From an uncultured Caryophanales bacterium (GTDB lineage: Bacteria > Bacillota_I > Bacilli_A > RF39 > UBA660): DNA of 37,365 nucleotides. Below the pieces are notes generated by a model. It did no database searches. It was given only the letters and a program-made list of their open reading frames with translations, and was not told the DNA's origin. The DNA lies in assembly GCA_946629545.1 (NCBI GenBank), contig CAMOXZ010000003.1, positions 1 through 37,365 on the forward strand, read 5' to 3'. Shown piece after piece: positions 24,097-25,006 of this stretch (its first letter is position 1; each line of letters starts with the position of its first letter). The position numbers were made by a program, and so were the translations under genes.

Positions 24097-24123
24097 CTTA
24101 TGGTCAAAAAAATTTACCATAAG
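24097..24123 (-). terminator. hairpin downstream of the ORF6N gene (weak terminator candidate)
   Basis: CTTATGGT/ACCATAAG dyad with 11-nt AT loop, only a short T tract after it. Confidence 0.4.
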
Positions 24124-24127
24124 CTAA

Positions 24128-25006
24128 TTATTTATCTATTATACTTTTTATAAAATTTTCTAAATTACTTTTTAGAAAACCTTTTTCTTGTAAAACTATT
24201 GAAAATACTTTTTTACCAAGATAATTAATAGATGTTCCAATATGATAAACTAAATTCCTATCCAAAATAACAAACCTATCATGAAATTTATTATTTTTAA
24301 AAACTCTTAATTTATTATTATATTGTTTATTAAATTTATTAATTTGTTTTTCAGTTAAATCCGATTTATTACTAGTAATCAATATAATTTTAGAATTAAT
24401 ATCCTTTATTAATTCTAAAACATCTAAACTAGCATAAGGATCCATTATTATTAATTCATTTTTTGCTTCCTTCAATATGCTATGTAAATAATAATATGCA
24501 TCATATACTGTACCAGATAAGAATAATCTTTCTTTTCTATTAAACTGTTCAAATAATTTGTTAATTTTTTCATCATGTTCAATTATCTTATTATTAATAT
24601 TATCTAGTGTTTGATAAATATCACTATTACTAGATAAATAATGTCTCATGGCCACAAAATTTCTCATAATTCTAACACTTATATCAGCAGCCACCTCAGT
24701 GTGAATAACAGAAGCAAGCATAGCAACGCCTTGCTCTGTAAAGACATGAGGCATATACTTTAGATTTTGACCTCTTTTTACATTCAAGGTTCCAATTTGG
24801 AACCTTGAACATTCCATAGGAGTTAATTGAAAATAAAAATCTTCAGGAAATCTTTCTACATTTCTCTTAACAGCTTTATTAATATCTTTTGTACCATTCT
24901 TGCATTCATAAAACTCTGCCAAATCGCTATCAAACATAACCTGTATTCCCCTAATTTCATAAATTTTATTTTGTATATTTTCATCACTTATTAAGAATTC
25001 TTTCAT
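24128..25006 (-). CDS. ORF6N-domain protein with C-terminal phospholipase D-like domain
   Basis: N-term IYEIRGIQVMFDSDLAEFYECKNGTKDINKAVKRNVERFPEDFYFQLT...FTEQGVAMLASVIHTEVAADISVRIMRNFVAMRHYL; C-term IIMDPYASLDVLELI and FHDRFVILDRNLVYHIGTSIN (HxRx4Dx7GTSxN variant of HKD). Confidence 0.88.
   Translation of the reverse strand: MKEFLISDENIQNKIYEIRGIQVMFDSDLAEFYECKNGTKDINKAVKRNVERFPEDFYFQLTPMECSRFQIGTLNVKRGQNLKYMPHVFTEQGVAMLASVIHTEVAADISVRIMRNFVAMRHYLSSNSDIYQTLDNINNKIIEHDEKINKLFEQFNRKERLFLSGTVYDAYYYLHSILKEAKNELIIMDPYASLDVLELIKDINSKIILITSNKSDLTEKQINKFNKQYNNKLRVFKNNKFHDRFVILDRNLVYHIGTSINYLGKKVFSIVLQEKGFLKSNLENFIKSIIDK
24783..24809. repeat. perfect 13-bp inverted repeat, 1-nt centre, inside the ORF6N CDS
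   Basis: TTCAAGGTTCCAA-T-TTGGAACCTTGAA read directly. Confidence 0.95.

Follow-up and report, generated by a model that had tools for sequence, protein, structure and literature searches.

What is conserved where a protein gene contains a perfect DNA palindrome, the peptide or the symmetry of the DNA? This question is raised by a gene of an uncultured Caryophanales bacterium whose product combines an ORF6N domain with a C-terminal phospholipase D-like (PLD-like) domain. The gene lies in a stretch of 37,365 nucleotides, analyzed here in full and referred to as the window.

The palindrome and its gene

The in-gene palindrome is exactly as the earlier note had described it: 13-bp arms that pair perfectly around a single central base. 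It runs from the third base of codon C66 to the first two bases of codon N75, thereby encoding (C)SRFQIGTL(N) (residues 66 to 75), and the FTEQGVAML motif follows 13 residues after this segment. No other perfect palindrome with 13-bp arms and a 1-nt center exists within the window. First-order Markov simulations gave an expectation of 0.003 such palindromes per window at any GC content, in agreement with the claim that the palindrome is unusual, and palindromes with at least five G+C per arm did not occur in 300 simulations. The palindrome is real and not due to chance. As single-stranded DNA, it would form a hairpin of -12 kcal/mol (z = -4.7). The prospect of finding the same 27-mer elsewhere in the genome did not hold: even with up to three mismatches, it occurs once in the 0.94-Mb genome. 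A second palindrome, overlooked in the earlier note, is kin to the in-gene one and lies 4 bp beyond the stop codon of the gene. Furthermore, the other ORF6N-PLD gene of the genome (L032) bears its own version, TTGAAGTCAAAAATTTTGACTTCAA.

Features of the ORF6N-PLD-like locus in the window
Feature	Position	Strand	Remarks
ORF6N-PLD-like gene	24128..25006	(-)	292 aa; houses the in-gene palindrome
ORF6N domain PF10543	24707..24970	(-)	residues 13-100, E = 4.7e-29
C-terminal PLD-like domain	24188..24538	(-)	about residues 157-273; Foldseek and alignment
In-gene palindrome TTCAAGGTTCCAA-T-TTGGAACCTTGAA	24783..24809	(-)	perfect 13-bp arms, 1-nt center
Second palindrome CTTATGGTCAAAAAAATTTACCATAAG (GGTCAA...TTTACC)	24097..24123	.	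10/11 outer pairs
Inverted repeat in the PLD-like part of the gene	24388..24420		perfect, 14 bp, 5-nt loop

The gene is flanked by a yebC-type gene on one side and an acyl-CoA ligase gene on the other. Its ORF6N domain scores 100.9 bits against a Pfam gathering cutoff of 27.8 and is thus a member of PF10543. The PLD-like domain matches NucT, Nuc, Zucchini, and TrmB in Foldseek; it carries HxR(x)4D, with K replaced by R relative to the HxK(x)4D motif of PLD nucleases, and H242, R244, and D249 are invariant across 29 aligned sequences. The product matches an anti-repressor family in PHROG and, over residues 5 to 276 (full-length profile match, E = 5.3e-85), the PADLOC candidate defense family PDC-S05. 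In the predicted fold, residues 72 to 81 have a pLDDT below 50, which places the palindrome-encoded peptide within a flexible, low-confidence loop; judging from this model, the protein may be able to put up with any residues that the palindrome dictates. The inverted repeat in the PLD-like part of the gene is AT-rich and lacks the motif described below, and is therefore probably due to chance.

Conserved position and covarying arms

ORF6N genes were collected by protein similarity and, for the Bacteroidota set, by the Pfam model; these gene sets are rich in metagenome-assembled genomes. The main set consists of 156 genes obtained by protein similarity alone, half from Bacillota and half from Bacteroidota. 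In each gene, the best palindrome between the FxFQL and FTEQG motifs was scored at 11 outer positions (k=3 to 13). Although these thresholds were chosen after the first palindromes were known, Bacillota and Bacteroidota gave the same result when scored separately, the two sets being alike in pairing. A single-protein search of viral contigs found no close relatives; the alignment search gave 24, which were left out of the statistics.

Our analysis shows that the palindrome is present at the homologous position in most ORF6N genes, as the earlier note had proposed to check. All 11 outer pairs are formed in 42% and 10 of them in 33% of 165 unique ORF6N genes, compared with 0.09% and 0.9%, respectively, when synonymous codons were permuted within each gene, and with 0.25% and 1.8% in control stretches from the same genes. 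Removal of nine genes from pattern-fetched loci (n=156) altered little (41% and 33%), and ascertainment bias from these loci was therefore rejected. In the 156 genes, at least 9 of the 11 pairs are formed in 94%, against about 6% under synonymous-codon shuffling. Most genes hold a single palindrome site, and two are rare. The palindrome is also present in one ORF6N gene each from Treponema (11/11) and Sulfuricurvum (10/11).

The pairing is not confined to a few positions. Observed versus expected pairing is 89% versus 31% at k=4, 96% versus 55% at k=5, and 89% versus 48% at k=8, and the excess extends to k of about 13 to 15 before it falls to background. No such excess exists for the central pair (k=1; 62% observed, 65% expected), as would be the case for a 3-nt loop. 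Among 65 disjoint gene pairs, which still have a common history beyond the reach of this control, double changes were compensated in 98 cases and uncompensated in 18, another 51 changes were single, and the arms diverge at about the same rate as their flanks. The closest gene pairs differ mostly by changes in one arm, indicating that restoration of pairing is not immediate.

Codon usage follows the palindrome. Whether the Ser codon is TCA, TCG, or TCC predicts the residue three codons downstream (Val/Leu, Ala/Ser, or Gly, respectively), with a mutual information of 1.16 bits (p < 1e-4). Together with the synonymous shuffles, this test rejects chance arising from a conserved peptide and codon usage as an explanation. 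In eight genes, pairing of the right arm would need a TGA stop codon, and all eight have a mismatched Cys codon (TGC or TGT) instead. The same palindrome is read in another frame in 11 to 14 genes (one base out of frame in 11 of 130 unique palindromes), where it encodes FLVENFDQK-like peptides rather than the usual LRSQxxT-like ones. Pairing of at least 10/11 is found in 5 of 13 broken ORF6N fragments versus 124 of 165 genes (p = 0.008). Mismatches within the stems are G.T in 24 cases and A.C in 25 cases, and because these are equally frequent, pairing of a sense-strand RNA is not the conserved feature.

A palindrome also exists at the corresponding place in phage Bro-N antirepressors, just before the NESGLY motif. 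In a small set of 33 unique genes, which came from two queries and mostly represents phages of Gram-positive hosts, at least 9 of the 11 pairs are formed in 54%, versus 0.6% under synonymous shuffling. The Bro-N stems (e.g., AAGGGTGTCGCAAAACGCGACACCCTT) are quite different from those of ORF6N genes.

Because the palindrome occupies a homologous position, its arms change together, and codon choice tracks it, it is the symmetry of the DNA, not the peptide, that is conserved. The base-pairing constraint acts at the DNA level, and neither the sequence nor the peptide is the conserved feature. The test proposed in the earlier note, in which compensatory changes in both arms would point to selection on the DNA palindrome rather than the peptide, thus spoke for this idea; neither synonymous codons that break the palindrome nor a want of positional conservation of dyad symmetry, which would have spoken against it, was found.

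Copies beside the genes and flipping of the loop

Palindromes of the same type are not limited to coding sequences, and the consensus RGT..[C/A]A ... T[G/T]..ACY is common to coding and noncoding copies. The ORF6N loci, which amount to 837 kb, contain 224 motif-like palindromes and none under a fake pairing rule; although the loci reach farther, none of the 224 is more than 831 bp away from an ORF6N match. When the motif was not required, 94 palindromes were found within 1 kb of ORF6N, 68 of them with RGT..[C/A], compared with none of seven beyond 1 kb. A core-free pattern was also run against 392 genomes. Matches with a complementary core were present in 11 genomes, all of which have ORF6N, whereas matches with a noncomplementary core were present in 9 genomes, of which one has ORF6N (p = 7e-5). 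One match (G044:C3:63615), which at first seemed to lie apart from any such gene, falls inside a decayed ORF6N remnant. Complete genomes of Escherichia coli gave no match to the consensus palindrome.

The noncoding copies take various arrangements. Arrays of three to seven palindromes adjoin ORF6N genes in a Bacilli genome (G398), several palindromes lie 3' of ORF6N genes in another genome (G204), and in Bacteroidota they exist both upstream and downstream. Since these flanking copies show the consensus, it is kept without a coding need. At one locus (L009), the gene and its flank carry an identical palindrome. When flanking copies were compared with in-gene copies, the outer positions matched (p = 0.002) but the inner core did not do so significantly (p = 0.12); a self-encoded specificity, in which the inner core of the gene would equal that of its flanks, is thus unsupported. 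Beside one Bacteroidota ORF6N gene, four palindromes are set at an exact spacing of 34 bp (L241, 1105 to 1207).

In many viral contigs (L089 to L119) whose records show no ORF6N match, the palindrome CTTGAGGTCTCAAATTGAGACCTCAAG recurs between genes. These copies could be terminator-like hairpins or the same type of element with another reader. Some marine virus contigs likewise have a similar palindrome and no ORF6N gene on the contig record. Given such cases, another protein may act as the reader, or the viral copies may be unrelated terminator-like hairpins.

Comparison of close relatives shows how the palindromes change. In three loci that are about 95% alike, the loop is flipped exactly (AAA-TTT) at two intergenic palindromes, the in-gene palindrome differs by a single A-T substitution, which amounts to an inversion as well, and a further palindrome has undergone a wholesale compensated change. 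In the closest gene pairs, all six differences at the center are exact inversions. Loop inversions combined with compensatory changes are a footprint of template switching (PMC8794818). In a broken ORF6N gene (L109, 3379), a long fold-back with arms of about 35 bp has the palindrome at its center, the outcome expected of template switching at the hairpin. Tandem partial ORF6N units, several of them with stop codons, precede full ORF6N genes and share their orientation (L046, L037, L039, L040, L043, L069, and L084).

Possible roles of the palindrome and comparison with known systems

The earlier note had proposed that the gene may carry its own binding, autoregulatory, or recombination site. 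Our preferred reading, advanced tentatively as a real possibility, is that the palindrome acts in cis as a DNA element capable of forming a hairpin or cruciform and is probably recognized by the ORF6N or Bro-N protein encoded there. The element is carried within ORF6N and Bro-N genes and, in many cases, immediately next to them as well; the recognized form would be the DNA hairpin or cruciform, the reader would be the ORF6N or Bro-N domain of the protein from the same gene, and the outcome would be regulation of that gene, probably autoregulation or self-marking. New stems might arise when a mutation in one arm is followed by restoration of pairing, through selection and/or template switching through the hairpin, the latter of which would also invert the 3-nt loop. 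A cis site for the product of the gene would fit the way in which like palindromes gather around ORF6N genes, and symmetry, a partial consensus, pairing at all positions, the occurrence of both orientations, and placement within, before, or after the gene would fit a DNA structure that the protein recognizes. A plain operator of fixed sequence should have one sequence, yet copies within one locus differ, which speaks against it, as does the lack of a significant match between the inner cores of flanking and in-gene copies. A classical dyad operator would be a conserved sequence recognized by a dimer; a consensus exists here at the GT, CA, and TTGA positions, but unconserved positions also stay paired.

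A more specific version, in which ORF6N and Bro-N genes embed a hairpin tag of free sequence in their own recognition domain and the protein reads its shape as a self-recognition code, seems to us rather unlikely. The encoded protein would then recognize the hairpin in its own gene, in the neighborhood, and perhaps in competing elements. If this were true, a protein family would owe some of its sequence, in different phyla, to nucleic acid structure, and antirepressor and candidate defense systems would contain a self-recognition code.

Several other explanations were weighed against the cis-acting element. The palindrome might be a small mobile or selfish element, similar to REP or Rickettsia palindromic elements (RPEs), that settles in or near ORF6N and Bro-N genes, is tolerated since the encoded loop is flexible, and is perhaps mobilized in trans by an enzyme that an element encodes. 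The six to seven copies that can be arrayed beside single genes, the tandem in-gene copies, the use of a different reading frame, the identical pair at L009, and the viral copies without ORF6N would suit such an element, but there is no spread through host genomes, copies staying within 0.83 kb of ORF6N matches; stems vary among copies instead of being nearly identical; neither a GTAG tag nor a RAYT-type gene was seen; and clean empty sites were not found, five related loci being too rearranged upstream to tell. We consider it an unlikely explanation. Maintenance by mutation without function, in which hairpin template switching or repair between the arms keeps them complementary, draws on a known mechanism that can create and maintain perfect stems (PMC8794818), on the loop inversions, and on the fold-back at L109, and a continual process of palindrome repair could imitate part of the covariation. 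It is nevertheless improbable in view of the uncorrected single-arm changes that separate the closest pairs, the common consensus of noncoding copies (unexplained by mutation alone), and the poorer pairing of broken genes, and it accounts neither for the clustering nor for a position that is fixed in two domain families.

The tandem partial units, which are common upstream of full genes, and the modularity of ORF6N and Bro-N genes would be in keeping with a recombination or cassette site at which N-terminal and C-terminal halves, or else repeated ORF6N fragments, are swapped. Such a role is quite improbable, as the partial units continue beyond the palindrome to the end of the domain with no break at the palindrome, and no recombinase was linked. 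As to a hairpin in the mRNA that controls translation or stability, the stem is stable in either strand and antirepressor mRNAs are often under tight control, but RNA pairing should favor G.U over A.C mismatches, the loop occurs in both orientations, copies exist both upstream and downstream of genes, and no Rfam family matched at its gathering score. We regard this explanation as very improbable; the mismatch count and the Rfam result led us to reject an RNA hairpin as the main reading.

The cis-acting element was also compared with known palindromic systems. REP/RAYT repeats are tagged by GTAG and CGTC (PMC3733652); they resemble the present palindromes in being 20 to 40 bp long, in the logic of a single-strand hairpin, in occasional in-gene copies, and in arrays adjoining the gene that presumably acts on them. 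They differ in that no GTAG/CGTC tag accompanies the window copies or those flanking copies that were inspected, no tyrosine transposase is involved here, and copies are few and tied to one gene, whereas REPs are many and dispersed; complementary-core matches were found only in or beside ORF6N genes or their remnants, not dispersed genome-wide in high copy. Moreover, the coding position is fixed here in one domain superfamily, and the stem is free in sequence and conserved in pairing. RPEs are longer and occur in assorted genes and at varied places. Here, in contrast, ORF6N and Bro-N genes have the palindrome at a fixed place that is common to different phyla, and in-frame insertion into assorted unrelated genes was not seen, with one viral exception (the L113 copy, in another gene). 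What the two have in common is in-frame palindromic DNA inside protein genes (RPEs as cited in PMC3733652 and PMC2996958). PARCELs likewise represent dyad-symmetric coding DNA spread among diverse bacteria, but they are tandem 25-amino-acid repeats of imperfect symmetry in surface proteins, while the present element is a single perfect stem of free sequence in a DNA-binding domain and shows no tandem 25-amino-acid amphipathic repeats. Template-switch hairpins (PMC8794818) share compensatory stem changes and loop inversion; those were described in RNA genes under selection for RNA structure, whereas the present stem belongs to a protein gene and shows no wobble preference. TrmB-type regulators are similar in fold only, with an N-terminal DNA-binding domain and a PLD-like C-terminal domain; the former is a winged helix in TrmB and ORF6N here, and whole-chain superposition is poor (TM about 0.33).

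REP/RAYT, RPE, and PARCEL each lack at least one defining feature here, and in open-access papers we found no description of palindromes in connection with ORF6N, KilA-N, or Bro-N. The covarying palindrome within ORF6N genes points to an undescribed DNA-level signal in and around genes. In a segment of a very widespread protein family, seemingly random variation is in fact dictated by DNA base pairing. If this reading is true, alignments, codon statistics, and selection tests of ORF6N genes have been taken to reflect the wrong level, and an unrecognized cis element is carried by a family of phage antirepressors and candidate defense proteins.

The neighborhoods of some ORF6N genes were recorded in passing. 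In several species (L051, L060, L083, and L069), the ORF6N gene comes directly after the end of the same gene, an ftsW/rodA-like frame ending in LPFLSYGGSSLLVSM. On a Treponema saccharophilum plasmid (L269, 1199 to 3700), an ORF6N gene lies within a type I restriction-modification locus, in the order methyltransferase gene, ORF6N, hsdS, and Fic.
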